From the NCBI RefSeq assembly GCF_004354015.1, contig NZ_SMRU01000002.1:1-64000 (forward strand): a stretch of DNA of 64,000 bases, read 5' to 3'. Every line of letters starts with the position of its first letter. The stretch's first letter is position 1. Under the pieces are notes generated by a model that worked only from the letters and a program-made list of their open reading frames with translations, was not told where the DNA came from and searched no databases. The DNA comes from Arthrobacter terricola. Lineage in GTDB: Bacteria > Actinomycetota > Actinomycetes > Actinomycetales > Micrococcaceae. The translations under genes were made by a program, and so were the position numbers. This document shows positions 3,443 to 30,920 of the stretch, one piece after another.

Positions 3443-3787
3443 ATGCTTTCGCGCCGTTCCACCACTTTCACCGTCTGTGCGGTCGCCGGGCTGGCAGTAT
3501 CGCTGGCTCTGTCTTCGTGCGCTCCCGGCACCGGGACGACACCACCGGCCGCTTCGAGTCCGACGGCGACTGCCTCACCCACGGTATCGGCCACACCGGC
3601 CCGGACCACAACCGCAGCCGCCGAAAACCCGGCTCCCGCCGCGGCCACTGATGCCCCGGCAAAGGCACCGGCGAACACGCCGGCCTCAGGCCCCAAGGTC
3701 TTCACGTTCCGCGACGGGCATATCTCCTTCACCTATGCGGCCGGGTGGAGCTTGGCGACGCTACCGCAATCCTTGTCAACACGTTAA
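3443..3787 (+). pseudogene. Lipoprotein gene truncated by repeat A
   Basis: ATG 3443 follows AAAGGGGGATC, a strong ribosome binding site. The product begins with a lipoprotein signal (LAVSLALSSC, lipidated Cys about residue 29), then a Pro/Ala/Thr linker to about residue 90, then the start of a folded domain (FTFRDGHISFTYAAGW). The domain breaks off near base 3755, and the frame stops inside repeat A after only about 20 domain residues. In intact relatives of this kind the linker is followed by a globular domain of well over 100 residues, so the gene looks cut by integration of the island. No matching 3' part is found next to repeats B, C or D. A short lipoprotein could still be made. Confidence 0.6.
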
Positions 3788-3952
3788 AGCAAAAACCCCT
3801 CTGACGAGGGGGAATGCTGTGCCCGAGGTGGGACTCGAACCGGGTTCCAGGCCTTGAAAACACAGGGAACTCCCGAAAACATAGCGAATCCGAGCCAATC
3901 CGGCCGATGTACGACCCAGTCCGAAGCCCAAAGTGTGTATGTTGTACACACC
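3772..3952 (-). repeat. Repeat A: tRNA-Leu 3'-end-like attachment site (left hybrid site)
   Basis: Read on the minus strand, this unit ends with a tRNA T-arm plus 3' acceptor half (TTCGAGT loop, CTCGGGC A, at 3820-3842) followed by a rho-independent terminator. No 5' half of the tRNA is present. The left edge carries TTGTCAACA and the right edge a GTGTGTA/TACACAC dyad (3933-3951). The inner part from 3781 to 3842 is virtually identical to 9478-9537 in repeat B, whereas the outer arms are swapped between A and B. That is what attL/attR of one integrated element look like. The tRNA identity (Leu) is inferred from the GCCCGAG acceptor complement. Confidence 0.7.
3791..3811 (-). terminator. Rho-independent terminator inside repeat A
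   Basis: On the minus strand CCCCTC-gtca-GAGGGG is followed by TTTTT. It lies directly after the tRNA 3'-end-like sequence, as the terminator of the ancestral tRNA gene would. The same element is conserved in repeat B at 9486-9506. Confidence 0.75.
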
Positions 3953-4033
3953 CCAAATCTAGCGCTACACACTCCCCCGCCAACCGCACGTCAAAGAATG
4001 CCGCCAATCAGCTTGGGTTCCCGTCCACGCAAC

Positions 4034-4402
4034 CTATCGTCGAATCAGATGTTGCTCGATCAGGACGGCGCTCCCCCGCAAGTCAATGTCGCCGGCGGCC
4101 ACGCCCACGACCAAGTCGAACCCTTCCTCGGTGCTGAAGTCGTGCCGGTAGCCGTTGATCCACAGCATGAGCACCATGAGCGTCCAAGCGGTGCGCTTGT
4201 TGCCGTCGATCAGCGGATGAAACCTCGCCACGGACTCGAGGAGCGCTGCGGCCTTCATGGCCAGTTGAGGATAGGCCTCCGCGCCCATGACCGTCGTTGC
4301 CGGGCGCGCCAAGGCCGAAGCAAGCAGCCCAATGTCACGAATGTAGAACCCGTACCGGTCGATCACCTGCAGCGCGTCCTCAATTTCGAGGTACGAACTC
4401 AT
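4034..4402 (-). CDS. doc: Doc-type (Fic fold) toxin
   Basis: The 122-residue protein has the Fic/Doc core HPLIDGNKRTAW at about residues 62-73, with the catalytic His and the GNKR phosphate-binding loop intact. Doc enzymes phosphorylate elongation factor Tu on a threonine and stop translation. The N-terminal helix region (EIEDALQVIDRYGF) and the length of about 120 residues match Doc, not the longer AMP-transferring Fic proteins. The Phe of the canonical HPFxxGNKR is Leu. Its start overlaps the stop of the upstream antitoxin by four bases (ATGA), giving antitoxin-first coupling. Confidence 0.88.
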   Translation of the reverse strand: MSSYLEIEDALQVIDRYGFYIRDIGLLASALARPATTVMGAEAYPQLAMKAAALLESVARFHPLIDGNKRTAWTLMVLMLWINGYRHDFSTEEGFDLVVGVAAGDIDLRGSAVLIEQHLIRR

Positions 4403-4605
4403 GCATCCTCAAGGCGCTTGAGCAACTCAGCGTCATGGCTCATCACGAAATCCAAACCCTCATTGATCTCGCGGCGTCGCCCGTGCCGTTGCAGGACCAA
4501 CTCGGCTCCCTGGAGCAGCAGCGCGGACTTGGAAGTATGCTCCTCGGCGGCAAGCTCATCGAGACGGCGGTCGAGGTCTTCCGGAACACGCAGATTCATA
4601 GCCAT
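4399..4605 (-). CDS. Ribbon-helix-helix antitoxin of the Doc toxin
   Basis: The 68-residue protein starts MAMNLRVPEDLDRRLDELA, a ribbon-helix-helix DNA-binding dimer motif with the strand residues N-L-R-V, followed by a helix (TSKSALLLQGAELVL) and a flexible C-terminal tail that could occupy the toxin active site. RHH proteins repress their own operon and neutralise the partner. Canonical P1 Doc is paired with a Phd-fold antitoxin, so the RHH partner is a variant arrangement, though known in actinobacteria. A palindrome-rich stretch upstream (4606-4660, TACC repeats around GGTACCAAAACAGTACC) could be the operator. Confidence 0.8.
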   Translation of the reverse strand: MAMNLRVPEDLDRRLDELAAEEHTSKSALLLQGAELVLQRHGRRREINEGLDFVMSHDAELLKRLEDA

Positions 4606-4701
4606 ACCTCATGGTACCAAAACAGTACCAAGGAATCCCGAGGTCAGGACGGTTCGAATTCCGAACCGCTTGTTCGAACATACGGGGGGCGGGTTGCCGC
4701 G

Positions 4702-5007
4702 TCAGGCGATCTGGATCCGTTCGTCGCCGAGTTCAACCTCGACACGAAGCCGGCCACCGACCGCTTCGACGTATTTCCGCAAGGTGTCGACTTGGGCACG
4801 GTCGATCTCGCCGTGCTCAATGCGAGAGACCCTGTTCTGGCTGACGTGCAGGCGCGCAGCCAGCTCGACCTGGGTCAGGTCCGATGCCTCGCGGAGTTCC
4901 CGAAGCCGGTATGCCCGGACCTCATCGAGCAGGAGCTTCTTGTGGGCGTCCACAGCAACCCGGTCAACAGGCCGCTTGGCCAGCATCTCTTCGATAGTCC
5001 TTGCCAT
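4702..5007 (-). CDS. XRE-family HTH antitoxin (HigA-like)
   Basis: The 101-residue protein carries a helix-turn-helix at about 42-65 (LTQVELAARLHVSQNRVSRIEHG) and a short C-terminal strand region (GRLRVEVELGDE), the layout of HigA-type antitoxins paired with Gp49/RelE-type toxins. Its ATG overlaps the toxin stop codon (TAATG), and the toxin's last codons supply the GGAGG ribosome binding site. It is therefore translated by coupling after the toxin, the order typical of higBA. Confidence 0.85.
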   Translation of the reverse strand: MARTIEEMLAKRPVDRVAVDAHKKLLLDEVRAYRLRELREASDLTQVELAARLHVSQNRVSRIEHGEIDRAQVDTLRKYVEAVGGRLRVEVELGDERIQIA

Positions 5008-5369
5008 TACGATCCTCCTTTCAGAATTCTCAGATGATCATCGAACAGCTCATCCGCAATCGGGATGTTCGTTTTGTACCACTTGCTCCAGTTGCCGGCC
5101 TTGTCACCTGCGACAAGCAGGATCGCATGCCGCTCAGGGTCAAAGGCGAACAAGATCCGCAGCTCCGACCGGCCGCTCGACCCCGGTCGAAGGTCCTTCA
5201 TGTTCCTGTGCCGCGAACGAACCACCGTATCTACCAGCGGACGGCCAAGCCGCGGACCGTGCTCAGAAAGAAGCTCCGACGCGGCGATCACCTGCTCGTA
5301 GGAGTCCTGATCGAGCGCGAGCAGCCACGACTCCACCAACTCAACGCCAACATTCCACACCGATTCCAT
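5007..5369 (-). CDS. RelE/HigB-type mRNA-interferase toxin (Gp49-like)
   Basis: The protein (120 residues from ATG 5369; 124 if ATG 5381 is used) shows the phage Gp49/HigB pattern: MKDLRPGSSGRSELRILFAF, then a second hairpin AILLVAGDK, then WYKTNIPIADELFDDHL. Members cut mRNA on the ribosome. The HRN/MKxLR and R-x-L-F-x-F core is complete, so the toxin looks intact. It precedes its antitoxin, and the reverse order from the Doc module next door shows that two independent toxin-antitoxin operons lie back to back on the same strand. Confidence 0.85.
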   Translation of the reverse strand: MESVWNVGVELVESWLLALDQDSYEQVIAASELLSEHGPRLGRPLVDTVVRSRHRNMKDLRPGSSGRSELRILFAFDPERHAILLVAGDKAGNWSKWYKTNIPIADELFDDHLRILKGGS

Positions 5370-5460
5370 GATACAACCCACAGGTTCTACAACCCAAGGG
5401 CTATATTCACCGTGAGGTGAAACTCGCCTAATCCGTCTTCAGCTTGCCTTGATCAGTCGA

Positions 5461-6402
5461 TCAATCGGACGGCGGCGACACGCTCTTCAAAGGAGGCGTG
5501 GAACTGATCGGTCCGTGTTCCAGCGGGAAAAGGGAATCCGGTGTGCCGACGCTCGCCCACGGTGGAAGGTCCTTGGCGGCCACTCCTAGAAACTCCGAAG
5601 CAATCCGCGCAGCCTGCGCGTTCTTCCGCCGGCCGATCAGAGCTAGCACGGCAATGACGGAAGCTTGAACAATTGCCGGAAGCACCCAGACCGATTTTCC
5701 AAGGGACACACCCATAAGGCCGAAAATCAACGCCGGTCCCCCGCCGCCGGCCGTCAGGAGGGCCGCGAACGTGTATTTCCGGGCGTCCGCGCGCATGTTC
5801 CCGGCGGCGGCGCCGAATCTGTTGACGAGTCGGGCACGGGTTGACTTCGCCCTGACCAGTTCCAGGTTTGTCTCATTGATTTTGCCGGCCGTCGCGGCCG
5901 CCTCGGCTGCGTCCTGCCGGGACATCCTGTCCGCGCGGGGGTATCGGGCGCGGGAAGCGGCCCAGCGTTTGGTGAGCTCCGACTGCGCAAGCTTCGCTTC
6001 CCCGGCGGCCCTGATTTCCACGCCGGAGCGTGGGTCGAGTTGAGGGAGCGTCCTGTAGTACATGCCGAACTTGGAAAAGCTCTGCAGGGTCGTGTAGCCG
6101 TGACGGTACTCCCTGCGGGCCTTGTAAGTGGACACCGCTCCCGACACCGCCGCGGTGAGTCCCGCGAGCACGAAGATCCCGTAAAACACGAGGGCGACGT
6201 TCCCGACCCTCGCGTCATGGTTGCTGGCGATCGCAACACCAACCATGAGGATGCCGGCGCCTAGGAACGTCAGGAGACTTGTTGTGGAGGTCCGCTGCCA
6301 AGCGGCAGCGCTGAAACCGTGGAGCATGGGGTACCGGACCGTGGGCTCCCATAGCGCGGTCAGGACCACGCCGCCGCCTTGGTCCTTAATGGTGTGAAGC
6401 AC
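5461..6402 (-). CDS. Four-helix membrane protein of unknown function
   Basis: GTG 6402 is preceded by AGGAGG at ideal spacing, so the start is well supported. The 313-residue product has two transmembrane helices near residues 42-62 and 70-92, a long basic and Ala-rich cytoplasmic segment with coiled-coil character (about 95-205), and two more helices near 212-235 and 240-260, then a Pro/Ser-rich tail. I do not recognise a family. It follows a second small membrane protein in the same direction after 57 bases, suggesting a two-gene operon. Its position inside the A-B element makes it cargo of that element, and a role in host or phage interaction is possible but unproven. Confidence 0.6.
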   Translation of the reverse strand: MLHTIKDQGGGVVLTALWEPTVRYPMLHGFSAAAWQRTSTTSLLTFLGAGILMVGVAIASNHDARVGNVALVFYGIFVLAGLTAAVSGAVSTYKARREYRHGYTTLQSFSKFGMYYRTLPQLDPRSGVEIRAAGEAKLAQSELTKRWAASRARYPRADRMSRQDAAEAAATAGKINETNLELVRAKSTRARLVNRFGAAAGNMRADARKYTFAALLTAGGGGPALIFGLMGVSLGKSVWVLPAIVQASVIAVLALIGRRKNAQAARIASEFLGVAAKDLPPWASVGTPDSLFPLEHGPISSTPPLKSVSPPSD

Positions 6403-6459
6403 GTGTGCCTCCTGGAGTTTCCACCGGACCAGGTCGACATTCGGCCTTCGTGAGCTGGT

Positions 6460-6789
6460 TCATCTGCTGCCTGGCCCCGGTGCGGGGTTTCGCTCTGGCC
6501 AGGTGGTGTAGCCGCGTTTCCGCTCGGCGTAGTAGGGGCCGATCGCAAGCACCGCAAAAACCATGGCCACGGCGCACAGGGCGATGGCCAGCCAGATGGG
6601 CACCAGAGGTATCCATGCCGGGAAGGCATAGCCGGTCGCAGCGTCGATCAGAGCCAGCGGTGCGCCAACCCCCAAAGCGGCCAGGATCCCCTTGATAAAG
6701 GGAACGGCCCGGATCAGCCACTTCCCCGCCGGCGGCTGAACAGGCAGCGTGTCCCATTCGCTACGCGGAACGAACCTCACCTCAGCCAT
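6460..6789 (-). CDS. Two-helix membrane protein of unknown function
   Basis: The 109-residue protein begins MAEVRFVPRSEWDTLP and has two predicted transmembrane helices (about 28-50 and 57-83) with a short loop, then a basic tail rich in Pro/Gly. GGGGAGGG precedes the ATG at proper spacing. It is the first gene of a probable two-gene operon with the larger membrane protein downstream. No family is recognised. Confidence 0.6.
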   Translation of the reverse strand: MAEVRFVPRSEWDTLPVQPPAGKWLIRAVPFIKGILAALGVGAPLALIDAATGYAFPAWIPLVPIWLAIALCAVAMVFAVLAIGPYYAERKRGYTTWPERNPAPGPGSR

Positions 6790-7259
6790 TCAAACCCTCC
6801 CCACAGGCAATCGGACGCGTCACCGCCACTGGACGCCATGCTACACAGAAACAGCCCAATCCTTGCTTGACCAGCCAGGAATCGACTAGGCAGTGAATGT
6901 CAGCCAGGCGAAAACCGTCACCCTGGCCAGTGGTGTCATCGAGTTTCACAGGGGCATCCTTTCCTTGGGCCAGTGGCGCGGTGATACTGTTGGCGAGGCC
7001 CGGCGACGGCGATGAGGAGCCGTGCTCGATGCTGGCCGCCAAACAGGCCTCCCGGCCAGCACGTCGCAGCCAGAGTGGTGACATACACGAGGAACACCTC
7101 GCATAGCCGCAGCTGAACGTGGACCTAATCGCGTACTGGTAGTAGGGCCCGGAGAAGCGGGTCCAGCCGGGGCTACCATCTGATTGCGGATTGATTCGAA
7201 GGTGCCAGCCTCTTGGGCGGCCTGGGAGGGTTGCGTGCAGCCGCATCTTCCATGCAGCG
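6790..7259. other. No clear gene; possible decayed sequence
   Basis: A minus-strand frame (6782-7246) is open for about 150 codons, but its ribosome binding site, composition and overlap with the start of the membrane protein gene do not support it. The segment around 7100-7200 (GWTRFSGPYYQ on the minus strand) could be a relic of a protein gene. Adjacent genes are also broken, so decay is plausible. Confidence 0.3.
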
Positions 7260-8131
7260 CTAACTCAGGGCTTCATCCTCAAGCTGCTGGAAAGTCCGGC
7301 CGGTTGTTGTCTTCCAGGTGATTCTGCCGTTGATGTTGCCGCCCACGACAACAGCCCCGGCGGTACTTGGACTGCTGAACAACTGGTCCTTGACGAAGAC
7401 GTACTCGTCGCCGCGGATCTCCACGATGCCCTGCTCGACGAGGTCTTGGCGCCGGCGGACAAGGGACGCGGACAGGGATGGACGATGCGTTGCCTTACCC
7501 ACGGACCCAGCGAGAACCAGACGACCCTCCGTTGTCGGCCTTGCTCTGGCCTCAGTTCCTCCTTCACGGAAGACGAGGGTCTCAGCGGCCCCACTAGATC
7601 CCACAAGAGAAATCTGACGCACCGGCTCAAGCACCGGGTAACCAAGAGTTGTCAGCAGATTGAAATGGTTTCCAGATACTCGCGGCAGTCTGATTCCAAT
7701 GGCGCCGGTGTGTGAGGATTTGAGGCGTCATTGCCGTTGTCCAGCGCGTACCGCCCGGCTTCGGTGGACCGCTTGATGGCCTGCCATTCCATGTATCCCG
7801 CGTGGGTGTTCGTCCAGGTGTTGGTCAGGGACACTGCGACCAAGGCGTGGTCCCAGAAGTCCTTCTTGTCCGAGTGCTGCTTCAGCCTGTCGCCAATAGC
7901 CCCGCTCTGACCGATGTAGCAGGAAGGACGGTCTGAGGACGATGAGCCGAACAGGAAATAGACACCAACCTGCTTGGACTCCGGCATGTCCCGGAAATCC
8001 CGCAGAAGCGGGCGCGGCACTTCGAATAACCTCACCGTGCGCGTGGTGATCTCAGCCATTCGGATGCCCACGGGGTCACCCTGGGGAAGGTAAATCTGGA
8101 TCGTCTGAGGTAGTGGCAGATTCCGAAGCAT
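7260..8131 (-). pseudogene. GIY-YIG nuclease / DUF4357 protein, frameshifted
   Basis: The first part (ATG 8131 after GGAAGGATTT) encodes a beta strand start, then VGVYFLFG, CYIGQSG and DRLKQH, which is the GIY-YIG nuclease core. It ends in a stop near 7652. The +1-shifted frame continues without a gap as NLLTTLGYPVLEP and then a DUF4357 domain (LVLAGS, RRRQDLVEQG, LFSSPSTAG, WKTTTG) to the stop at 7260. In known relatives these two domains form a single polypeptide of about 290 residues. The break lies near 7665. Either the gene is inactive, or a sequencing error or frameshift restores it. The fused family is linked to mobile-element and restriction-like contexts. Confidence 0.8.
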
Positions 8132-8221
8132 GCGTAAATCCTTCCACAATGCCGCCATGCCGGTGTCGGGCCTTCATGGCCCCAACGGGGATAGATTTTT
8201 TGAGTAACCTAAGGAGCGCTG

Positions 8222-8716
8222 ATGGGCTACACGCATTACTTCCCGGGCCTAATCGCGACGGCCGATGTTATTGCCGACGCCCGCAAGATCATCGAAGCCG
8301 CCCCTGTGACTGTCTGCGGGCCGAAGGGACAGGGACCTCCGATGCTCAACGATGCGGAAGGGATCCGTCTGAACGGCTTCGCGGTGGCCGGCGAGGCCCA
8401 TGAGACTTTCCGATTGCAGGGCACCATTGAGCCGTCCCACCCGGACATGTGGACCTTCTGCACCACCACTGGCATGCCGTACGACGTCGTCGTCACAGCC
8501 ATCCTGATCGCTGCCGCGGTGCGCGCGCTGGAATCAAGATCTAGCACAATCCGCAGCGACGGGCGCTGGGACAACTGGGCCGCCGGGGTGGCCCTGTTCG
8601 AGAAGGCGGTGCGCCCGCTGACCGAGGACGAGAAGATCGCTCTGGAACTCGACGTCGAAGCCATGCGGCCGGCGCGTGAATCCAACCCGAGCGGAGGCCC
8701 ACCCGACCTCCAATGA
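8222..8716 (+). CDS. Conserved hypothetical protein, phage/mobile-element type
   Basis: A strong AAGGAG precedes the ATG. The 164-residue soluble protein begins MGYTHYFPGL, a start seen in short proteins of actinobacterial phages and mobile elements. The middle (ETFRLQ, WTFCTTTGMPYDVVVTAILIAA) suggests an alpha/beta fold, and the C-terminus is acidic. I know no function for it. It is divergent from the broken GIY-YIG gene and precedes another broken gene. Confidence 0.65.
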   Translation: MGYTHYFPGLIATADVIADARKIIEAAPVTVCGPKGQGPPMLNDAEGIRLNGFAVAGEAHETFRLQGTIEPSHPDMWTFCTTTGMPYDVVVTAILIAAAVRALESRSSTIRSDGRWDNWAAGVALFEKAVRPLTEDEKIALELDVEAMRPARESNPSGGPPDLQ

Positions 8717-8730
8717 AACAGGATTGGGGT

Positions 8731-8902
8731 ATGAAGAAGATCCTGCTCATCGTCCTGTGTTCTTCCTGCCGCCGCTGGCCGTCCTCCTGCACGAGGGCCA
8801 GAACCGGAAGTACTCTGGGCACTGCTGTGGCAGCTGCTCGGGCACTCCCCCGGAGTCATCTACGGAATTCTCGTGGTCACAAAGGACCCTGAGAAGAAGT
8901 AA
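8731..8902 (+). pseudogene. YqaE/Pmp3-family small membrane protein, two frameshifts
   Basis: Three frames placed end to end give a typical Pmp3/YqaE peptide: MKKILLIVL (from 8731), FFLPPLAVLLHEG (from 8760), and LWQLLGHSPGVIYGILVV ending in KDPEKK and TAA at 8900-8902. Intact family members are about 50-60 residues with two transmembrane helices around a PP-A-V turn and G-x-P/S-G-V-I-x-A motif, linked to membrane potential under stress. Two frame changes within 170 bases show that the copy is dead unless the sequence has errors. It was found by reading all frames, as no single frame holds it. Confidence 0.65.
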
Positions 8903-9459
8903 CGACCGGTCGCTCAGCGTGCCAGGGCCCGGCCCATAGTCAGGTCCGAGAGTATTTTGGGAAACCGGTCCGAGATGTGCGCGATAGCTCCGCCCCCGCG
9001 TCTGCTGGGGTCGGTCAGTACAACTGCTAGCACGCGCTCGTCCTCATGCAGGTACGTAGCTCCGAGCCCGCACGTGCATTGAGTGCAGGTAAGTCGAAGA
9101 CTCAGGGGCCGACCGCCAGAGGCACTGCCAAAAATCAGATGTAAGTGTGGACACTGTCCACACCCCCTTTGGCAAGACAACCGGACAGCCACAGCACTCC
9201 CCTGCAGCCAGGATTAGCTGTCCAAAGAAACCTCCGCGCCAAAGCCGGTTTCATCATGCCGTACCCCGGGCCCTGAGCCATGAACTGGTGTTGGCCATCC
9301 ACGACCAACCCGGCCGAACGGGAACGAGGAACCGCATAACCCCACCCCAGAGCAGGCGGAGGGCCCACCAGCCAGGGACTTGAACCCGCCACCCACACAC
9401 CTTCATAGGCCACCGCGGCGGCCAGGCACCAGCCCGCGAACCTAGCGTCAGAGGCGCTT
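8903..9459. other. Gene-poor stretch before repeat B
   Basis: No convincing gene is seen. It contains the palindrome at 9146-9162 and, at 9372-9386 on the minus strand, a lone T-arm-like sequence (GGTTCAAGTCCCTGG) that does not fold into a complete tRNA. A minus-strand open frame (8914-9192) with several Cys lacks a recognisable family. Confidence 0.35.
9146..9162. repeat. Palindrome TGTGGACA-C-TGTCCACA
   Basis: An 8-bp perfect dyad around a single C has the same architecture as the palindromes at the right edges of repeats B and D, with a compensating T-A to G-C change in both arms. It stands alone, without the tRNA-like part, and is followed by a short CCCCCTTT that matches the downstream context in B and D. 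Confidence 0.65.
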
Positions 9460-9645
9460 GTCAAGCTTTGTACACACGTTAAAGCAAAAACCCCTCTGAC
9501 GAGGGGGAATGCTGTGCCCGAGGTGGGACTCGAACCGGCTTCCAGGCCCCGGAAACACAGGGAACTTCCGAAAACATGCCGAGTACGGCGCGGTCCGGCC
9601 GATGTACGACCCAGTCCGACGGCAAATCTGTTGACACTGTCAACA
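9460..9645 (-). repeat. Repeat B: tRNA-Leu 3'-end-like attachment site (right hybrid site)
   Basis: The left arm is GTCAAGCTTTGTACACA, and the right arm is the dyad TGTTGACA-C-TGTCAACA (9629-9645). The inner 60 bases, including the terminator hairpin (9486-9506) and the tRNA 3'-end-like sequence (9514-9536, minus strand), match repeat A. Excision between A and B would join TGTCAACA to TGTCAACA on the chromosome and TGTACACA to TGTACACA on the circle, as expected for attR paired with attL. Confidence 0.7.
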
Positions 9646-9935
9646 CCCCTTTTCTGACAGAATTTGAAGAACACAGAGCGACTGCCGCCCCCAGTTTGAG
9701 GAGGAACGGCAGTCCGCTCTGTGGCCGGTTGCAACGCATCAGGCCAACTCGTTTTGGATGCATCCGTTTGCGACAGATATGTCGGTTCGAATCTGGTCAC
9801 GGCGGTCCCCCTTCGTGCATCTCATAGGTCCAAAGTGCAGGAGCGCGCATGACCTTGCAGTGTGCATGACACGTCACCGCGGACCGTGGAACCGAGGCGA
9901 ATGGATTGGAGCTGAAACGGGGGGTGGCTATCTCG
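9646..9935. repeat. Homologous tail of repeat B (shared with D)
   Basis: This stretch aligns along its length with 33807-34085, by eye roughly 80% identical. It includes a hairpin (AGAGCGACTGCCG / CGGCAGT-c-CGCTCT, 9675-9720) and a conserved end (GGAGCTGAAACG). No reading frame is conserved between the two copies, so it seems to be non-coding flanking DNA of the attachment site or an element end. A and C lack it. Confidence 0.6.
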
Positions 9936-10199: not shown

Positions 10200-10360
10200 T
10201 GACTCGCGGTTTCGAGTACGTTCCTCATGAGTTGGTTCAGCAACCCATCGGGGCCCACCAGGCTCACGCCCTGTTCCTTGGGTTGAGCGAGCAACCACTC
10301 CGCAAGCTCCTTCTGATCGATGATCTATCCCGTCACAGGATCGATCATCACCCCTGTCAT
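10200..10360 (-). pseudogene. IS256-family transposase, 5' remnant
   Basis: From ATG 10360 the frame reads MTGVMIDPVTG, an in-frame TAG, then IIDQKELAEWLLAQ, EQGVSLVGPDGLLNQL and NVLETA, where homology stops. This is the characteristic N-terminus of Mutator/IS256 transposases of actinobacteria, which are about 400 residues long. The catalytic DDE region is absent. The internal stop and truncation make it a dead relic. Confidence 0.75.
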
Positions 10361-10960
10361 CTCGGTCGTGGATTCCGACACGGCCGTCTCCTTTCGGATC
10401 AGGCCGGACCCACACACCGTTATTCAGACAGTCCCAAGGACCGCTGGGATCGAGCAGTGAGAGCCTGTGCGCCCTACACCATGGGACGACTCGTCCCGTG
10501 GCACCGCGGCTTTGCTCGTTGTTTGTGAGTCTTAGTGACTCTTTGGGAATAACGGTGGCTCGGCTTGGGTTACCAACAATTCAAGTACACCTTCGAGACT
10601 CTGGGATTAGCGGCGAAGGAGAAGTCGTCGTCGGGGTGGAGCGTCTCTAATAGGTCAGCAAGAGAGCAGCTAGGGGCGAGTCAGTGAAGCCGATTGATGT
10701 GAATCCTAACCGCATTATTCAGCGCTCTATGCACTCTCCGAGTGGCGAGGTGCGGGCTTGGTTTCATGAACGGCGCCTGTTACGGCGTCCAGATCGTCGG
10801 CGTGGTTTTTGATTAGGGCAATGGGAAGCCCGGGTGGGGTGCCTGTCCTTGAGGATTTCATGGGGTCCCCCGATGGGGAGTTGTTATCAAGCCGATAGCC
10901 AGTCTCATGCCAAGGTATGTCAAGATAGTGATAGGAACTGCACGGGGGAGGTGTCGCATC
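10361..10960. other. Gene-free stretch upstream of the Panacea operon
   Basis: No supported gene is present. Around 10860-10940 the sequence becomes AT-richer and probably holds the toxin-antitoxin promoter. GGGGGAGGT at 10944-10952 is the ribosome binding site that fixes the GTG start at 10961. Confidence 0.4.
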
Positions 10961-12177: not shown

Positions 12178-12530
12178 GAACTGCCCCCCCAGTTTTGTTG
12201 ACTCCTTGATCTAGCGAGCTTGTGCTCGTGGAAGGATGTTGACCATGCCCACGCCGTACGGGCGGAGTTCCGCCAGGATGTCGTTGATATGGCCCGCAAG
12301 GGCGAGGCCCGCTGGCGCAGATTGCGAAGGATTTCGGGCTTTCGGTCACGACGCTGAAAGGCTGGCTTGTCATCGACGAGCGCAAGGAATCCGGGACGGC
12401 AGGGACCGTGGGAGCGGAGTCTGCCGACATGCGGGAGCTGACGAAGCTGAACCGCCTGTTGGAGCAGGAGAATGAGATTCTGCGTCGTGCTGCTGCCTAT
12501 CTGGCGAGGGACATCAACCCAAAATGATCT
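12178..12530 (+). mobile_element. IS3-family element remnant 1 (left end plus orfA)
   Basis: The left end reads GGAACTGCCCCC and then GTTTTGTTGACTCC. The orfA relic starts at ATG 12245 and reads MPTPY, then in shifted frames EFRQDVVDMARKGE, LAQIAKDFGLSVTTLKGWL and RLLEQENEILRRAAAYLA, ending INPK and TGA at 12526-12528. This is the HTH plus leucine-zipper OrfA of an IS3 element. At least two single-base losses (near 12258 and 12308) break it. OrfB with the DDE catalytic core is absent, and the sequence joins the end of the AbiV-like gene. Confidence 0.8.
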
Positions 12531-13458
12531 ACCAGCCCGTATTGGCGGCCGAGGTATCGGTCTTGGCGCTCCATCAGAGCCTCTACGGAAATAGGCTCTT
12601 CCTTCAGGTCGAGAGACAGAAGCGGGACAGTCCATTTCTCAAGAATCAGACGCAAGGCACTACCCCAGCCGCTCGGAAAGAACTGTGTCCGCGGGCAGGA
12701 CCGCGGCGAGTACCTCCCGAGCCTTTTCCCGGCAAAACTCCCAGCGAGTATCCGAATCGAACACTGCTCCTTTCCACACCGCTGCCGTGGCCCGCGCCCC
12801 TTTCTCTGTGAGAAGCCCTGCATGCTTCATAGCGAGGAGGAGCCGGGGTGCCGCGGTGTCGACGTAAAACTGGTCCGAGTTACCTCCCGTCCACATAACC
12901 CTCATCTGTCTCCTCGTAATCCACGTAAAGGGCATTCTCCCGGGTTCTGAGCAAATCATTACGCCAGATCCAATCCACGTCATTGGGTCCATCAAGATAA
13001 TGACTCGGACGAAGCCATGTTAGGTACCGTTCGATCGCAGCAAAGTCAGCAGGATTGCCCGCGTGAACCTTCGTGTAGATCAATCGAGGGAGATGTAAAT
13101 AGAAATAATCGCGTCCTTTGCGAGCCACCCTCTGGTCATGCGTTCGCGCGATGTCAAGCAGAATGAGCGCCTTAGCGCTCTCCTCGAGGCAGATTACTTG
13201 AAGTGCCCCCGCCCCGGATTTCTGGTTTTCCTTCAAGAGGTGCTTTATCGAGCACATCAATTGCTGAACATGTGCGCCTAAATGCTCCAGCCCCTTGCCG
13301 ACGACGGAAAGTCGCTCTTCGCGCGGCATTTCAAAAATGCGGTGTAGCCGACGTGCCTGCTTCAAAGCGCAGGCCCTTGAAGCGAAAGTAGGCTGAAGAG
13401 TGCCATGCCTAGTCATGCTATACGAGACGAAGAGCGCCTGAAGCGCCTCGCCAAGCAA
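12497..13458 (-). pseudogene. AbiV-family abortive infection protein with two frameshifts
   Basis: The first frame (13458 to 12880) has a HEPN-like helical core with VICLEESAKALILLDIA and then LRTRENALYVDYEE, typical of AbiV proteins. It stops after EGYVDG. The next frame continues seamlessly with NSDQFYVDTAAPRLLLA to 12660, and a third frame continues with GWGSALRLILEKW to about 12540. Placed together they give about 300 residues without gaps. AbiV blocks phage translation in Lactococcus by an interaction with a phage protein. Two breaks near 12885 and 12660 mean this copy is probably inactive, or the sequence has two indels. Confidence 0.65.
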
Positions 13459-15034: not shown

Positions 15035-15420
15035 CGTGGCTGGCAGCGTCCGTCATGCCGCTTTGGCGCCGGCCGGGGGAACCGGTCAGGCGTCCCGGCG
15101 CTTCCCGGTAAGCAGCGCACGGCCAGGGAGGCAGCCGCCCAGCCGAGCAACACAAGACCGGCCTCACCCCGCGTGGGATGGTCCGGCAGGGCTTGATGGC
15201 GATCAGATCCATAGGGGGTGAGGATGGCAGGTAGCAGCTGATACCCAGGAACAGCTCGTTGTGGTCGGACTGGATGGCGAGCACCACCGGAAGGACCAGC
15301 AGCCGGCCCTTAGCTGGTCAGCAAGGGCCGTGTGGCCCGCTTAGCAGGCAACATGGTCAGGGCATCACACGCCATCAGTCGCACTGAATGTTCCCGCCTT
15401 ACACCCGGACTTCCTAAAGT
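15035..15420. other. Gene-free stretch before repeat C
   Basis: I see no supported gene. Short shadow frames exist on both strands without family resemblance. The stretch separates the HNH gene from repeat C. Confidence 0.35.
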
Positions 15421-15608
15421 GTCAAGCTTTGTCAACAGCCGGAAAACAAAAAGCCCCTGACCTGCGGAAACACTGTGCCCGAGGTGGGACTCGAACTGCA
15501 TTCCAGCCCCTGTGGATACTGGGAACCCGCGAAAACATGCCTAATCCGAGGCAGTCCGACGGAGGTACGAGCCGATCTAACGCCAAAGGTGTTGACGCTG
15601 TCAACACC
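15421..15608 (-). repeat. Repeat C: tRNA 3'-end-like attachment site
   Basis: The left arm is GTCAAGCTTTGTCAACA, followed by CCTGCGGAAACACTGTGCCC, then the minus-strand tRNA 3'-end-like sequence (15475-15497). The right edge has the 9-bp dyad GGTGTTGAC-gct-GTCAACACC (15588-15608). The inner part resembles repeat D more than A or B. One base inside the T-arm (CGAACT for CGAACC) differs from the other three copies. Confidence 0.65.
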
Positions 15609-15892
15609 TCCTGTTTTGGCTTTACACTCAGCTACCGGCCGTAGGTCCGGGCAAGTCTTTCTTGCCTTGACACCTAATTCGTCGTGCCTCGGGGCAGGAG
15701 ACGCTCTAGGCATTCCCGAAGCGGCGGCGTGAGGCTGCGCGGCAGGCCTCCCCGTTCGCGCCGCCGCATGTTTGTGCCCTGCACCCCTGGCGCCTGTTCG
15801 TAGCCTGCGTTTGAACGCCTGCCATCGGGAACCGTGCCGCTAATAGGACGTCAACATCATTCCTTAGTGCGAAATACGCGAGACACTAGATT

Positions 15893-17608
15893 CTAAGCTG
15901 ACTCCGGCGGTTCCTGATCCGGCTCTTCAAGCCAGGCAAAGGCAGAAGCGACTGCATCTTCATCAGTTTCCAAAATGGATAACCCGGTGCGTGACAGCAT
16001 GTAGAACTGGTCAACCCACGATGAGGCTAGTGAGACATTGCCCCCAAAGCTCAGTGAGAAACTGGGAACTAGGTGCAGCCCGTGAAGTACGTTCAGACAG
16101 GGCTCCATGGCATGTGTCTCAACGGACCACCACTCCGAGTGGGTGACTCCACTCGCAAGCGAGTAGGCCTGTCGGTACAAATCCAGAAGGCCTGCCTCGT
16201 CAGCCATTGCCCGAATGGATTTCCCACCCGCAAACGTGTCACGGGTGTCAACAACCCGGTCATCCACGACGTCGTTATTGTGGCTCAGTCGCTTCAATTC
16301 CTCGGCTGCCTCACGAAAACCGTCAGTACGTGCTTTTACAGGTAGTTCATCCGAAATGCGGGCATAGAGCTTGGCTTTGCCCGCGCCATACTCCTGGAAC
16401 TCGCGATAGATAGATGGATCCTGAAGAGCCATCCAACGGAGGTAGATCTTTGTTTCTACAAGCATGCGCGCGATGTGCGCACCATGTTCCATGCACCAAA
16501 GATCGGGAGCCGAAAGCACAGCGATGAGGTCCCGCCCTGCACGGGCCACCAGTCCCGAGATGACCTCCTGTCGCGCCTTCTCATATAGGCGCGCAGGCGC
16601 TGTCTCGATGGCCTCAATGAAACTGCTCAACACATCCATTGTGAAACGGCGAAGATGCGCTCCGTCTTCAGGAACTGGGGTCGGAGCGGCGTGCTCGACA
16701 GGCAGACTGTCCGAGGTCCGCACCTCGATTTCATGCTCCTCCTGATCGGTGCCATCCACGTAGTCGTCCTCCGTCTCACTTTTGCGGATACACCGGGAAG
16801 TCATCGAGTTCGCCCCCCAGAACACCCGCGCCCACTTGATCGCATGATCGAAGTGCTTCGGATCTTTGACAAGCAGCATGCCCTTATGCGCCCCCCAACC
16901 GGCTCGCACAGCGGTATCTGCTGCGGACCTCGTGCCGGTATCGCCAGGATAGGACTTCAATAGCTGGATTGTCCGTGCATCCGAGCGAAAGGTCCCGGCA
17001 TGGACTGTGCTCCAAGTGCGGAAGCACTTGATGAGTGCCTCACGGTGTCCGTCCTGCAGAACACCGAGCAGAGCCTCTTGAATGAGTTGCAGTTCGGCAA
17101 GCTCGGGGGGTGTGTGCGGTGATTCGCCTGCAAGCCAGGGTGCAGGGATGAACGGATACGAACCAAGTACACGACGGATGCTCGCTGATAGCAGGCCATA
17201 ACGGCTTGCCTCCTCGAATAGGATTGCAGATGAGCCCGGGAACTTCCCGGCAAGATCCGCTAGGTGTGTCAGACGCCCATCCAACAACTCCGCTATCACG
17301 GTAGTCTCTCCATGCTGGGCAAGCTGTTCTTGAACTGCCTGCTGCCAGCTGATGAAGCGATGAACGCTCTCGTTGCCCTGCTCGGCCATAACCAGCGCTG
17401 GCCAGAGCAAGTCCGGTAGGTCATCCTTAAACCAGTCGTTTGCTCGCAACATCCCTGTCGCGGCAAGCGGGGACTTGTAAACGCGTCCTTTCCGGACGTG
17501 ACCTGCCAATGGTCCCGTGTGCTGGTTCGGTCTAGGGAAGTTCACGTCCAAAACATACCCTCCGCGGCTGACAAAAGATGTGAGCCCACCTTCATGTCGT
17601 CTGCGCAT
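15893..17608 (-). CDS. Large hypothetical protein, DUF5677-like C-terminus
   Basis: The 571-residue soluble protein has no signal or membrane segment. The N-terminal half (to about 330) is unrecognised and begins with a basic region and a WQQAV-containing helix. The C-terminal half (about 345-545) is helical and resembles DUF5677: HIARMLVETKIYLRWM, then a long stretch ending ASGVTHSEWWSVE. DUF5677 has been compared with HEPN-like helical proteins, often toxin-like or RNA-binding. It is monocistronic and lies convergent to repeat C, between the zinc-ribbon HNH and the HNH/Gabija genes, which suggests a defence role. That is context only. Confidence 0.5.
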   Translation of the reverse strand: MRRRHEGGLTSFVSRGGYVLDVNFPRPNQHTGPLAGHVRKGRVYKSPLAATGMLRANDWFKDDLPDLLWPALVMAEQGNESVHRFISWQQAVQEQLAQHGETTVIAELLDGRLTHLADLAGKFPGSSAILFEEASRYGLLSASIRRVLGSYPFIPAPWLAGESPHTPPELAELQLIQEALLGVLQDGHREALIKCFRTWSTVHAGTFRSDARTIQLLKSYPGDTGTRSAADTAVRAGWGAHKGMLLVKDPKHFDHAIKWARVFWGANSMTSRCIRKSETEDDYVDGTDQEEHEIEVRTSDSLPVEHAAPTPVPEDGAHLRRFTMDVLSSFIEAIETAPARLYEKARQEVISGLVARAGRDLIAVLSAPDLWCMEHGAHIARMLVETKIYLRWMALQDPSIYREFQEYGAGKAKLYARISDELPVKARTDGFREAAEELKRLSHNNDVVDDRVVDTRDTFAGGKSIRAMADEAGLLDLYRQAYSLASGVTHSEWWSVETHAMEPCLNVLHGLHLVPSFSLSFGGNVSLASSWVDQFYMLSRTGLSILETDEDAVASAFAWLEEPDQEPPESA

Positions 17609-18002
17609 AAATAACCGCTCGACTGGTTCATAAGAAAAGGGTTAATCGGGCCAGGACTTTGTCAAGCAACTCGGTGTGGCGACCAACGAATCCTCGATGT
17701 GGCGCCCGATACAGTCACCCTAAGGCGAAGGAGTCCTTCCACGACAATCCACAAGCAAAAAGCATGCGACCGTCGTCGAGTACGGCCTGCAAGCCATCCT
17801 CAACCGCACGCCTGAAGCGGTGATCGAGGATGGTGGCCCGGCTGGATTACTCTCGGTCCTGTGTGGGAACAGCGCCGACGTCGACGTTCTTGGACGCCCG
17901 GACGGCAGATTCCGAGCCACCATCCACGAAGACACATCAGGCAAGAAAGATCAGTTGCGATCCGAACTTGCTGATTTGGCATCTACACGCTTGATCTCTC
18001 GC
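17609..18002. other. Upstream region of the HNH gene
   Basis: The stretch is divergent between two genes and probably holds both promoters. The HNH frame stays open upstream to 17820, but that extension has no homology. At 17760-17830 the sequence resembles a coding fragment (VEYGLQAILNRTPEAV in the plus strand), a possible relic of another gene. Confidence 0.35.
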
Positions 18003-18798
18003 ATGGTCACGCGAACAGTTCCGCCTATGGTCCTCAATATTCTGAGAGAGGAAGTCGGTTACCATTGTCCCGCGGACAAGGACGGGGACATCTGCGGAAG
18101 CCCATATCTGACTTGGCATCATTTCGACCCTCCATGGCGTGTGGAGAAACACCACCGTCCTGAGGGCATGATTGCCCTTTGTCGCGAGCACGCTGACAAA
18201 GCGGATAATAGGAGCTACACCGATGATCAACTGCGGACTTTAAAAAAGGAAGGCAAGGGGCGGGGAAAATCCGTTTCGGGCCGCTTCGATTGGATGCGGC
18301 AAGAGATGATTGCCGTTGTAGGTGGCAACGCCTTCTTGGATGCGCCAGAGGACATCATCGTACAAAAGGGGGGTTGAACCGGTCCTGTGGTTTCGCACCA
18401 ACAAAAACGGTGAGAAAATGGTTAACTTCCGCATTCCATCATTGCCTGGTGAACCACTGAGGGCCGCCTTGGTGGACAACTTTTGGACAGTAGATCCAAA
18501 AGGTGCTGCTTCATTCGAGTGCCCTCCGAATGGGCGGAAGTTGTTCGTATCGTACGCCAACGGTGACTACTTCCGGTGCGAGTTTGACGTTATTGAAGAC
18601 AGGGACCAGCTGGCGAAGAAGTTACCAAAGCTGAAGCACGTAAGTAGTTATCCATTCGGATTCCCGTTCACGATGGTGAAGATCGAACAAGAACTATCGG
18701 GAATCTATCCAAAGTTCTCCCAAGAATACATGGACACGGGAAAGATCACTATCGGGGACACCGTCATGAACGCCTCGGTCATTAGGATAGCTACGTAG
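18003..18798 (+). pseudogene. HNH endonuclease with a G6-tract frameshift
   Basis: ATG 18003 begins MVTRTVPPMVLNILREEVG, followed by a Cys-rich HNH module (YHCPA, CGSPYLTWHHFDPPW, MIALCREHADKAD) and GRFDWMRQEMIAVVGGN. The frame stops at 18375-18377 just after a run AAAAGGGGGG. The -1/+2 frame continues exactly as VEPVLWFRTNKNG, then VDNFWTVDPK and LFVSYANGDYFRCEF, to the stop at 18796-18798. In known relatives these are one protein of about 265 residues. With five G instead of six, the gene would be read through. It may be phase-variable, corrected by slippage, or simply mutated. Start alternatives upstream (17820) lack homology. Confidence 0.75.
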
Positions 18799-19017
18799 GA
18801 AATCGGCTCTCACAGAGTCGTTCAATTTGAGACATTACAATAAGAGAGCAGTTCAATCGCTCACGCCTTAGGCCAGGCCATTGTGCCCGCGGACTGGCCC
18901 CCGAGGGTGTCTCATTTTGCGTTTCGGCCGTGGCCGGATGAATTGGGAAAGGGTTAGGTGTATCGCTGCGGACACTCGCGGCCACCCCACCCAGTATTAG
19001 TGCACCCGAGGAGTGTC

Positions 19018-20958
19018 TTGTACCTGAAGCGAATTACGATCGAGGGGTTCCGCGCTGCCGTACCGCACCCCATCACTCTTGACCTCCCGGGCCGATTCAG
19101 CCTTTTGGTCGGATCGAACGGCGCCGGGAAGACCACGATCAATGACGCCATCTATTTGGCGCACCCTGATCGGTTTCCGCGGCTCGCACCGCCCGACGCA
19201 GCTGTTCTGGGCCTTGCGCCGCGCAATATTGCCATGGAATACGCATTCGAGGGACCGGGCCGTACCGAGGGAGCGCTCGGTCAGGCGCTCCAGAGGATCG
19301 GAACCAGTGCTCCGTTTTGGATGAGATCCTTAGAGCGGTCGCTTGGCCGTGTCAGGGCTCGGACCGTCGGCCTGGCCCCAGATGAACTGGAACAGCTTCG
19401 ACTAATCTACCTGCCTGCGCTTCGGAACCCGGTGGATGAACTATCCCGGCGCGAAACCAGGGTCTTATTGGAACTCCTGCGAGCGGAGCAACTGCGGAAT
19501 CCTTCCACTGGAACTCTCAGTGACGTTCGCCGGCAGGCGGAGTCGTTGCTTGGTTCCCTTACGACCCATCAACTACTAGTCGACGTTCAGGGGCGCATTG
19601 CAGAGAATATGAAGACTCTGACCACTGGGGTGAAGGAGCATTTCCCGTTCATCGGAACCCAGAAGGTGGATGACGGATACCTAGCCCGTGTCTTGGAACT
19701 CATGCTTGCGACGACAAACGAAGCGAACCAAGCGCAGCGTCTCGAGGCTTCGAGCCTCGGCTACGTAAACCTTCTGCACATCGCAGTCACTCTCGCCGGC
19801 ATTCCCGACCCGTCAATATCCCCGGAGACGACCTCTGAGAACGCCCCGGCCGACAGTTCCGGCGCTGCCGATGGTGCGGTCGGTGTCAATCAACCCCTAG
19901 GAGATATCAATCAGCCCGCTCCGGCAGATAACGCTGAGGATGCTCGACGGAAACTCGAAATGCGAAGCGAGGAGGCGGAAGACCAGCTTGATTCGTTCTT
20001 CCCGCAGCTGTTCCACGCCACCGTCCTCATAGAGGAACCTGAGGCACACCTCCACCCGCAGCTTCAACACGGGCTCATCCGCTATCTCCGCAAGGTGACC
20101 GTCGAGCGCCCCGACCTGCAAGTAATCGTGTCGACCCACGCGAGCGAAATTGTCGCTGCGTGCAAGCCCGAAGAAATGGTAGTAGTACGTAGGGAATATG
20201 GCCGCGTGGTCACCCGCACCTTGGCAAACATTCCGTGGAAGGAAGCAGATCGGAAAAAGATCACCAGGATGACAGCACTCCATTTGGACGCTAGCCGCTC
20301 GGGTGCACTCTTCGCAGACCGAGTTGTGTTGGTCGAGGGCATTACCGAGGCAGCCCTTGTCCGTGCGTTCGGACGAGCGTGGGCTAGCCTTGATGGGGCC
20401 AAATTCGCTTTTATTGATGCGCTATCCATCGTGCCAATCGGCAATAAGGTCGGTGAATGGCCGGTCCGTCTCCTGGCGCATCCTGGGTGGGAACTTGCTA
20501 GTCAAGTCGCCGTGCTGTCGGATACTGACAAACGCGACGACCCCCTGCCGGAACCAAGCCCAACGGCATGGCAAAGTGGCTTCGCTGACTCGACTCGGTT
20601 CAAAGTGTTTTGGTCTCGCCCGACCCTCGAGCCAACTTTAGTGGACGGAAACGACCTTCTGATAGAGAAAGCCTTGGCCTCGCTCGGCCAGTCCGTGATA
20701 GGGGCTTTGACCTCGAAGAGTATTGATGACCTATTCCTGACTTCCTCGGGGAAAAAAGCGAAGGGGGAATTCGCATTTGAACTCGCTGCCCTTGTAGATG
20801 AGACCGCGTCCACTGTGCAGGTGCCGGAGCAACTCGTTGAATTGTTTGACTGGCTCTGGGCTGGTCACGTCGCGGTAGAGGATGGAGGCGACGGCGACGG
20901 CGACGGTGAGATGACAAAGGAGTCCGGAGCCGAGAGCGGGCCTGGCGGCCAAATCTGA
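19018..20958 (+). CDS. gajA: Gabija-like GajA: OLD-family ATPase/TOPRIM nuclease
   Basis: TTG 19018 after CGAGGAG is the best start, because it begins directly at YLKRITIEGFRA, the OLD-family opening. The 646-residue protein has Walker A (GSNGAGKTT, 32-40), a central helical region, a Walker B-like EEPEAHLHPQ near 340 and a TOPRIM domain with VLVEGITEA near 440 and DTDKRDD near 500. OLD nucleases use ATP or nucleotide sensing to control TOPRIM cleavage of DNA. The stop overlaps the helicase start (TGATG). The pair matches Gabija: GajA nicks DNA when nucleotides are depleted during phage infection. An Asp/Gly tract near the C-terminus is unusual. Other class 2 OLD pairs cannot be excluded. Confidence 0.82.
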   Translation: MYLKRITIEGFRAAVPHPITLDLPGRFSLLVGSNGAGKTTINDAIYLAHPDRFPRLAPPDAAVLGLAPRNIAMEYAFEGPGRTEGALGQALQRIGTSAPFWMRSLERSLGRVRARTVGLAPDELEQLRLIYLPALRNPVDELSRRETRVLLELLRAEQLRNPSTGTLSDVRRQAESLLGSLTTHQLLVDVQGRIAENMKTLTTGVKEHFPFIGTQKVDDGYLARVLELMLATTNEANQAQRLEASSLGYVNLLHIAVTLAGIPDPSISPETTSENAPADSSGAADGAVGVNQPLGDINQPAPADNAEDARRKLEMRSEEAEDQLDSFFPQLFHATVLIEEPEAHLHPQLQHGLIRYLRKVTVERPDLQVIVSTHASEIVAACKPEEMVVVRREYGRVVTRTLANIPWKEADRKKITRMTALHLDASRSGALFADRVVLVEGITEAALVRAFGRAWASLDGAKFAFIDALSIVPIGNKVGEWPVRLLAHPGWELASQVAVLSDTDKRDDPLPEPSPTAWQSGFADSTRFKVFWSRPTLEPTLVDGNDLLIEKALASLGQSVIGALTSKSIDDLFLTSSGKKAKGEFAFELAALVDETASTVQVPEQLVELFDWLWAGHVAVEDGGDGDGDGEMTKESGAESGPGGQI

Positions 20959-22487: not shown

Positions 22488-22653
22488 CGACGAGCAGGAT
22501 GCCGATGTGAGTGACTCTCCTCTCGTGGTGTATTGGAAAGCATCCTTTCCACGGTGACACTGCGGGTTCATCCTAATGCGGGTCAGGCATTATCAGAGAT
22601 TAGGACTACGCAGATGGACGCTTGGTTCGTGTGGGCAAGGCGGTCAGAGTGTC

Positions 22654-22810
22654 GGGACTGCCCCCGGTTTTGTTGACTCCTTGACCTAGCGAGCTTGTGC
22701 TCGCGGAAGGATGTTGACCATGCCCACGCCGTATCGGGCGGAGTTCCGCCAGGATGTTATTGATGTGGCCCGCAAGGGGAAGCGCCGCTGGCGCAGATTG
22801 CGAAGGATTT
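22654..22810 (+). mobile_element. IS3-family element remnant 2 (left end plus short orfA)
   Basis: The left end GGGACTGCCCCC and GTTTTGTTGACTCC is nearly identical to remnant 1. The orfA relic starts at ATG 22720 and reads MPTPYRAEFRQDVIDVARKG, then loses one base and reads on as LAQIAKDF, ending abruptly at 22808. It lies in the same orientation as remnant 1 but carries different frameshifts and a different truncation point, so the two decayed independently. Confidence 0.78.
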
Positions 22811-23289
22811 CAGATCGGGGTCCTGCCCCTTCTGGATCTCTACCCAATTGCGCACCTGATCGAACCAGATTTGGATGTACTCTCCAGGCCGCTGGTCGGC
22901 GCCCCGCCACGACCTGGTAGCATCCTCGGGGCCCCCACCGCGGTGACGACACTTCGGCGTAGGGTGGTCGCCGACTGGAACTCCTTGGCGATCGTGGCTG
23001 CGTTCCTGTTGTCCACTCGACCGGCTTGCCCTCCACGGAGGCCGGCACGACAACGCCGTCGTCGACAGGGAGGCCACCCGCGGCGCCGTTGCCCCGCGGT
23101 ATCACGCCGTCGAACCGCACCCGGCCCACACCGGAGGGATAGGTCCGGTCAAAGTCTTGGAAGAGATCCAAATCGGAACGGGGAGTTGGTAGATCGCGGT
23201 CACGGTCTCGGCCGCCGGCGGAGTCGTTTCCTCCGAGGTCATATCGTTCACGACTCCGAGCTACTTGGTGCCGGAGGCGTGGGCGGTCC
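22811..23289 (-). other. Unassigned mosaic sequence
   Basis: The minus strand has several overlapping open frames but none shows a family. One from about 23240 begins MTSEETTPPAAETVTAIYQ and stops after about 45 codons, and another near 22830-22930 reads IQIWFDQVRNWVE. The codon phase changes repeatedly, which suggests decayed genes joined between the IS3 and integrase relics. Confidence 0.35.
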
Positions 23290-23450
23290 CTATCCCAGGG
23301 CCAGGGTGACGTCGTAGCCGGCGGACTTCTGCAGGATATCCCTCGCCCGGTCGTACCGCCGCGTGGGCTGCGGATCCGCGTGGCCCATGCCATCCCGCAG
23401 ATCGTGCACCGACACCCGGTGTCCGCTGAACTCGGGCTTCACGTCTCCCG
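23290..23450 (-). pseudogene. Tyrosine recombinase (integrase) C-terminal relic
   Basis: The minus strand reads VSVHDLRDGMGHADPQPTRR, then YDRARDILQKSAGYDVTLAL and TAG at 23290-23292. This is the end of a tyrosine recombinase: the motif H-D-L-R, then GHADP-x-T-x-R-RYDRAR, where the Tyr is the catalytic nucleophile. The catalytic domain upstream is missing, so the gene is a fragment. It is the only integrase trace in the window and is consistent with the tRNA-associated repeats. Confidence 0.7.
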
Positions 23451-30642: not shown

Positions 30643-30920
30643 TGTTGATCGCCCTTTGTTAGGCGATCTTCCTGACAACTGGCCTTGCCGGTCGGAACCT
30701 CCGAAAAAAACCACGGCAGGCACCGAGCGGGCAAGAAAGCTCCCGCGACGAACGACTCTGAGTCATAAAGCTTGTACATGAGGCCAGTATCTTCGGCACC
30801 ACTGACATTCTTGGTGCAGCCGGGGCATGTCGCATCCAATTAACGCCGCAAGTGGCCTCGACCGAAAGATAGTCGCTTGCGTATGCCGAACCACTTTCGG
30901 CAGATCGATTCAACATGCCG

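Follow-up and report, generated by a model that had tools for sequence, protein, structure and literature searches.

What are the two similar repeats, A and B, that enclose a small set of genes near the start of contig C21 of Arthrobacter terricola? The initial annotation of this stretch (bases 1-64000 of the contig, hereafter the window; the 5.57-Mb genome is in 108 contigs) had taken them for attL and attR, the attachment (att) sites at the two ends of one integrated 5.7-kb element. Our analysis places them in a larger arrangement: A and B quite probably mark two junctions in a tandem array of modules, each integrated site-specifically, that is anchored on a tRNA-Leu(CAA) gene, with a tyrosine integrase acting on the sites.

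A repeat search of the window returned A and B as a direct repeat pair of 188 nt, 84% identical, with a spacing of 5695. The shared unit is the full ~190 bp and extends beyond the ~60 near-identical bases first described. By eye we count ~65 identical bases there; these consist of a hairpin-like stretch followed by GTGCCCGAGGTGGGACTCGAACC, which is the 3' end of tRNA-Leu, as the tRNA-like block had been read. The same site occurs six times in the genome, always on C21 and always on one strand, at ~3.8, 9.5, 15.4, 33.6, 65.9, and 80.0 kb (sites A to F, spacing 5.7-32 kb). Site matches were found in 193/198 genomes of the genus at E<=1e-5 and in 181/198 at E<=1e-10; the genus and family searches scored the best 2-9 candidates per genome, so that site counts per genome are lower bounds, and a match may represent half a site or, if it is weak, the tRNA gene or its end. 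Because the inner block recurs in the genome, which the initial annotation had itself named as a refuting observation, and in the genus, A and B are two array junctions and not a unique pair, and the six sites rule out a private attL/attR pair. What stands of the first interpretation is that both repeats are attachment-like sites and that a segment running from site to site is a plausible mobile unit. Their crossed outer arms are present as described (Table), but they are weak evidence of integration, since unlike arms are found in 96 of the 134 sites whose two arms both belong to the four classes given below (~108 expected if independent; 38 like, 26.3 expected).

Each site looks like an att junction, and specifically an attP-like one, in which a left arm, TGTNNACA, precedes the core word GAGGTGGGACTCGAAC by ~51 bp, the tRNA-Leu 3' end forms the core, and a palindrome of two inverted arms, TGTNNACA-N-TGTNNACA, follows in most sites, starting 109 bp from the first base of the core word. 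A strict pattern of core plus palindrome matched twice in the window (B and the site at 33.6 kb) versus 0.00 times in 100 shuffles. The common arm types of array sites are CA (TGTCAACA), AC (TGTACACA), CC (TGTCCACA), and GC (TGTGCACA). Our arm table covers 163 of 186 full sites, after 7 without a recognisable core and all duplicates were removed. The palindrome halves were complementary in 134/156 sites versus 56.5 in shuffles (maximum 76), most commonly as GG/CC (71), GC/GC (43), and TG/CA (19), indicating that the palindrome is kept by compensatory change. The left flank is of two kinds: either a noncoding block is conserved there, in many cases together with an extra palindrome ~300 bp further left (type II; B and F in this genome), or such a block is missing (type I). 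The noncoding block also stands directly past tRNA-Leu(CAA) in genomes G012 and G106. Sites B and D are followed on the right by ~286 bp (9640-9925 and 33801-34086) that are 85% alike, so the two elements share a right-end type. Another contig (C24:35364-35422) holds a lone right half of a site, in which GTACGGCCCAGTCCG words are repeated and the palindrome is of GC type. Rfam at gathering thresholds returned nothing in the window.

The sites form a region with a fixed anchor. Ten genomes assembled in 1-3 contigs had 4-13 matches each at E<=0.001, some weak ones being other tRNA-Leu genes, and every match with E<=1e-6 lay on a single strand per genome. Measured between the outermost matches, tRNA end included, the clusters spanned from ~42 kb (G006, with weak end matches) to 597 kb (G185). 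For eight of these ten genomes we fetched the array-end locus, picked because it looked like a tRNA end and its match was confined to the core or left half, and tRNA-Leu(CAA) was present in 8/8. In A. terricola the intact gene lies on the same contig, and its 3' flank is similar to the left half of the sites and carries the arm TTGTGCACA. Upstream of the tRNA, A. terricola, G016, and G114 are collinear; the collinearity of A. terricola with the other two stops <=50 bp from the tRNA 3' end, past which scattered matches of up to ~4.4 kb occur, and G016 and G114 still have a few common blocks there. Taken together, these results identify the array as a large variable region anchored on tRNA-Leu(CAA). 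At family level sites were matched in 29/245 genomes from 7/32 genera (E<=1e-10). A site pattern found at least 114 stretches, and the 80 listed all come from Arthrobacter, Pseudarthrobacter, Paenarthrobacter or an unplaced Micrococcaceae bacterium. We also considered a prophage or plasmid origin of the sites and rejected it: the site was absent from 50,697 phage and 72,556 plasmid records, and viral contigs gave 0 matches to an exact pattern of limited sensitivity (a close variant caught 42/111 loci).

Many relatives encode a tyrosine integrase beside the anchoring tRNA. The family has 376 aa, and its catalytic domain (PF00589, E 6.6e-23) is the only part clearly named by Pfam; by sequence, the solved structures closest to it are those of other tyrosine recombinases, and the match to IntI4 in the PDB is short (residues 302-358 only). 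A frame of 379-386 aa starts ~86 bp past the tRNA in 6/8 of the array genomes (G185, G016, G097, G166, G114, and G146). The distance to tRNA-Leu(CAA) is 86-87 bp, and the arms are of like kind, in 29 of the 30 best integrase loci; the thirtieth (L254) had no tRNA within the fetched 4.1 kb. Twenty further, more distant loci comprised 11 (73-75% identity) by tRNA-Leu(CAA) with such arms and 9 (58-66% identity) with no arms and no tRNA in the fetched stretch. Matches at E<=1e-60 were obtained in 88/198 genomes, some of them merely fragments or distant relatives (35-42% identity), and more than half of the searched genomes have sites and no such integrase at this threshold. The initial annotation had noted that no intact integrase lies between A and B; no PF00589 match (E<=0.001) was found on the whole of C21. 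An integrase carried inside the modules was also looked for in the protein clusters around 171 unique full sites (flanks up to 4 kb, often ~1.5 kb), and the 25 largest of them contained none. The enzyme serving the array seems to be still encoded in many relatives and lacking in the A. terricola strain, and since no close integrase was found in its genome, the array may now be idle there. G106 carries several close sets of 2-3 tyrosine recombinase genes, two of them twice with identical scores, which are unlinked to the array.

The two arms between the tRNA and the integrase gene share their dinucleotide, with one exception, CG with CC, and this dinucleotide changes together with the integrase N-terminus. 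Of the 376 alignment columns of the 30 integrases, the eleven most informative on the arm dinucleotide were residues 19, 28, 14, 5, 6, 27, 25, 34, 37, 26, and 8, and the best column outside residues 5-37 was residue 183 (0.43 of 1.14 bits). CA arms occurred with L or V19, AC arms with R19 and T6, and the single CC case with C19. In the second set of 20 loci C19 was found in 5/5 CC-arm integrases, as predicted by the first set, and 6/6 GC-arm integrases shared W5 E6, T17, and R19, forming a fourth class. When residues 1-60 are left out of the tree, the arm type switches at least 11 times along it. By analogy with the known family we take the N-terminus to be the arm-binding domain; judged from sequence, these residues may offer a readable, directly testable protein-DNA specificity code for arm binding by the integrase.

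One module of the window is shared from site to site with another genome. Element C-D (15453-33810) has 96.8% identity to contig C22 of G043 over 18,366 aligned bases; the two genomes have unrelated sequence to the left of the C core and, to the right of the D core, sequence that is only site-like (~80%) and then unrelated, and the identity switch falls in or next to the core at both ends. C-D is a movable unit bounded by sites. For element A-B no whole-module partner was found in other genomes. Pieces of it stand beside sites elsewhere: G022 has the Doc region (88%) in one place and the HigB region (92%) in another, and its left block has 88% identity past tRNA-Leu in G012.

These observations could be joined as follows. 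Each ~190-bp site would be an attP-like junction whose tRNA 3' end serves as the crossover core; the N-terminus of the integrase would bind the arms and the enzyme would recombine the cores. A circular module, possibly received from another cell, could enter at any site and would leave by recombination of its two flanking sites. Modules that lack a recombinase, such as A-B, might be moved by the integrase in trans, or in cis together with a neighbour, in the manner of a cis-mobilizable element (CIME). A-B itself is probably one such non-autonomous, CIME-like module of the array.

Several results weigh against this account. Among 41 long inter-genome matches, in which some rows are one genome under two ids, 61/72 ends that are not at a contig edge fall outside sites, and a single whole-module transfer was found; the 11/72 ends inside sites, which with +-60 bp account for 2.7% of bases, count in its favour. 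No empty site with the left flank of A and the right flank of B, of the kind proposed for the 5.7-kb element, was found among 206 genus genomes (best two candidates per genome scored), and circles are invisible in assemblies. The A. terricola genome had no integrase of the family (E<=1e-60, >=59% identity; the best candidate, 37% identical, is on another contig, 9/14 candidates scored), and G043, which shares C-D, is not among the 88 genomes with an integrase match. The co-change of arms and N-terminus includes four independent AC/CA pairs on well-supported branches that agree at residues 6 and 19, which are too few (sign test p 0.125). In pairs with a close backbone and unlike arms, third-position differences were 0.48 in the N-terminal part versus 0.26 in the backbone, indicating that arms and N-terminus are exchanged together as a block, so that DNA linkage as well as function could keep them associated.

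The arms at element ends are also no more telling than those within sites. In the A. terricola array 5/6 elements have like arms at both ends, including A-B (AC/AC); the AC left arm of B is the commonest in its left-block type (29/40 such sites). Over 17 array segments, with lone palindromes left out of the site pairing, element ends were alike in 19/58 cases: in 15/30 elements whose far site is of type I (8.2 expected) and in 4/28 with a far site of type II (3.5 expected). Within one site the arms were alike in 21/72 cases (type I 17/32, 9.8 expected; type II 4/40, 4.0 expected). Arm matching is significant per element and per site alike, and we rejected it as a marker of element history; with likeness equally common within sites, a regional clustering of arm types accounts about equally well for it.

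The array might be part of something wider, and we regard this as a tentative possibility: a genus-wide, integron-like system of gene capture, with the integrase at tRNA-Leu(CAA) and multigene cassettes following in one orientation, in which the first ~40 integrase residues and the arms (CA, AC, CC, GC) are swapped jointly as an addressing code that would choose which cassettes a cell moves, and in which defence and toxin-antitoxin cassettes travel. An unlikely alternative holds that the sites are old att scars and that modules are exchanged today by homologous recombination between the repeats after uptake or conjugation, with no need of an integrase. The missing family integrase in A. terricola and G043 and the many shared-segment ends outside sites agree with it, and because no part of the site is better conserved than the core, homologous crossovers would also land there. 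Scars, however, would lose the arms and the palindrome, which are kept by compensatory change, and the site arms match those beside the integrase gene. That A and B are attL and attR of one 5.7-kb element integrated once, the other sites being unrelated, accounts for the reciprocal arms of the pair; it has become very improbable with the same site present six times on the contig and in most genus genomes and with unlike arms as the rule. Its strict form is contradicted, and it survives solely as the special case in which A-B is one module of the array. Least credible is that the repeats are regulatory or structural (terminators ending like a tRNA, or binding sites for a protein that organises the chromosome, lying on one strand because they follow replication), as their hairpin-like left half and single strand might suggest, since strong matches are restricted to one region past tRNA-Leu(CAA) and are not chromosome-wide, the core is a tRNA 3' end, and a shared module is bounded by two sites.

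The features of the array in A. terricola are compiled in the Table. Both toxin-antitoxin operons claimed between A and B were found, a Fic/Doc toxin with a ribbon-helix-helix (RHH) antitoxin and a helix-turn-helix (HTH) antitoxin with a Gp49/HigB-like toxin. Of the two broken genes claimed there, one is upheld in two adjacent open reading frames (ORFs), the first with DUF4357, that probably are one disrupted gene, and the second is unsupported. On the two membrane proteins claimed, the scan gave a weak Pycsar-TM match, below its cut-off, in the ORF at 6460-6789. None of the 10 A-B ORFs scanned is a recombinase or transfer protein (no genome-wide serine recombinase search was made). Module B-C carries a Panacea/PemK-like pair and AbiV-like and HNH proteins; C-D carries Gabija and Wadjet; D-E, with ten ORFs scanned, carries genes of CoA-ester metabolism and transport; and E-F encodes an AbiEii-like protein, an AAA ATPase, and a protein that matches HNH and NACHT weakly. 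The AbiEii-like gene to the right of site E is closely followed, inside the array, by a tRNA-Gly(GCC) gene (C21:67604-67676; L025 7604-7676). To sample cargo across the genus we took the best-scoring ORF near each unique site with enough flank (94 right, 73 left). On the right 74/94 read toward the site and 15/94 encoded Fic/Doc; on the left Fic/Doc was not in the 25 of 77 families shown, hence at most 1/73. Elsewhere in the genus the cargo is varied, metabolic enzymes among it, so that the name 'defence island' would not cover it. The window also holds a ~230-bp dispersed repeat (10205-10435; ~84-95% identity in some 40 genus genomes, scattered on both strands), a ~350-bp sequence (12186-12536) with 85-88% identity at scattered positions in many genomes, and a segment (461-1173) with an 88% identical copy in the same genome (C12:154132-154842).

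Table. Array sites, cargo and anchoring tRNA gene on contig C21 of A. terricola (positions in the window unless given with the contig)
Feature	Position	Strand	Evidence and remarks
Site A	3767-3954	+	left arm TGTCAACA 3774-3781 (CA); core GAGGTGGGACTCGAAC 3825-3840; right palindrome TGTGTATGTTGTACACA 3934-3950 (AC)
Fic/Doc toxin	4034-4402	-	PF02661 E 1.7e-15; 3' end toward site A
RHH antitoxin of Doc pair	4399-4599	-	PF01402 E 7.4e-6
HTH antitoxin	4702-5007	-	PF01381 E 9e-12
HigB-like (Gp49/DUF891) toxin	5007-5369	-	PF05973 E 1.4e-20
Cargo ORF	5461-6402	-	no family
Cargo ORF	6460-6789	-	weak Pycsar transmembrane-effector (Pycsar-TM) match, below cut-off
Two adjacent ORFs (7260-7634 and 7652-8158)	7260-8158	-	DUF4357 in first
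Cargo ORF, 164 aa	8222-8716	+	no family
Lone right half/palindrome	9100-9171	+	palindrome TGTGGACACTGTCCACA (9146-9162); ~320 bp left of left arm of B, in noncoding type II left block
Site B	9462-9649	+	left arm TGTACACA 9469-9476 (AC); core 9520-9535; right palindrome TGTTGACACTGTCAACA 9629-9645 (CA)
Site C	15420-15623	+	left arm 15430-15437 (CA); core ~15481; palindrome ~15590-15606 (CA)
Element C-D	15453-33810	+	96.8% identity to G043:C22, flanks unrelated
Gabija GajA and GajB	19018-22487	+	PADLOC GajA 1.7e-56, GajB 7.2e-31; in C-D
Wadjet type I jetD, jetC, jetB, jetA	23767-30624	-	PADLOC JetD1 1e-85, JetC1 E 0, JetB1 8.9e-79, JetA1 2.7e-166; in C-D
Site D	33621-33843	+	left arm 33630-33637 (CA); core 33681; palindrome 33790-33806 (CA)
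Site E	C21:65913		beyond window
Site F	C21:79977		beyond window
tRNA-Leu(CAA), intact	C21:169726-169808	-	beyond window

The reading as a modular array with defined joints accounts for a large variable region in the genomes of a common soil genus, and exact boundaries can be given for a movable defence unit, with Gabija and Wadjet in one 18-kb module. We found no published description of the Arthrobacter array in a literature search that reached few subscription papers. It is known in kind, tandem island accretion having been described; its scale and the arm/integrase code we did not find described.

Tandem accretion past an RNA gene is known (PMC5704250; PMC3146451), and CIMEs as well as the tandem accretion of integrative and conjugative elements (ICEs) and integrative and mobilizable elements (IMEs) have been reviewed (PMC5704250). 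As in CIMEs and accreted islands, A and B are direct att repeats that hold the 3' end of tRNA-Leu(CAA), and no integration or transfer genes were seen between them within the scope given above. A CIME has a cognate integrase available in the same cell; for A-B no close one was found in this genome, and other genomes of the genus have it. The array also differs from the cases reviewed there in its extent (up to ~600 kb), its genus-wide occurrence, its attP-like junction sites, and the lack of an ICE or integrase close to the modules here.

The ssrA islands of Dehalococcoides come close as well: they are arranged in tandem past one RNA gene, with direct repeats of its 3' end and diverse cargo, as is the Arthrobacter array, and 15/31 have no integration module (PMC3146451). 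Those islands have a serine recombinase (DsiB) and an ssrA target, their repeat measures 20 bp, and every copy of it lies within 100 kb (PMC3146451), unlike the hundreds of kb spanned in most of our 10 genomes. The Arthrobacter array has instead a tyrosine integrase (PF00589), a tRNA-Leu(CAA) target, and ~190-bp sites with arms and palindrome.

Chromosomal (super)integrons have an integrase at one end, repeats in one orientation, toxin-antitoxin genes, and genes that mostly read one way. Unlike the short integron cassettes of one or a few genes, the modules described here are multigenic and many kb long; the site has a tRNA core and arms, and more than half of the genomes have sites without such an integrase. 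The likeness to superintegrons lies in the array-end integrase of many genomes, the single orientation of the sites, the toxin-antitoxin genes, and the right-hand ORFs that mostly read toward the left site.

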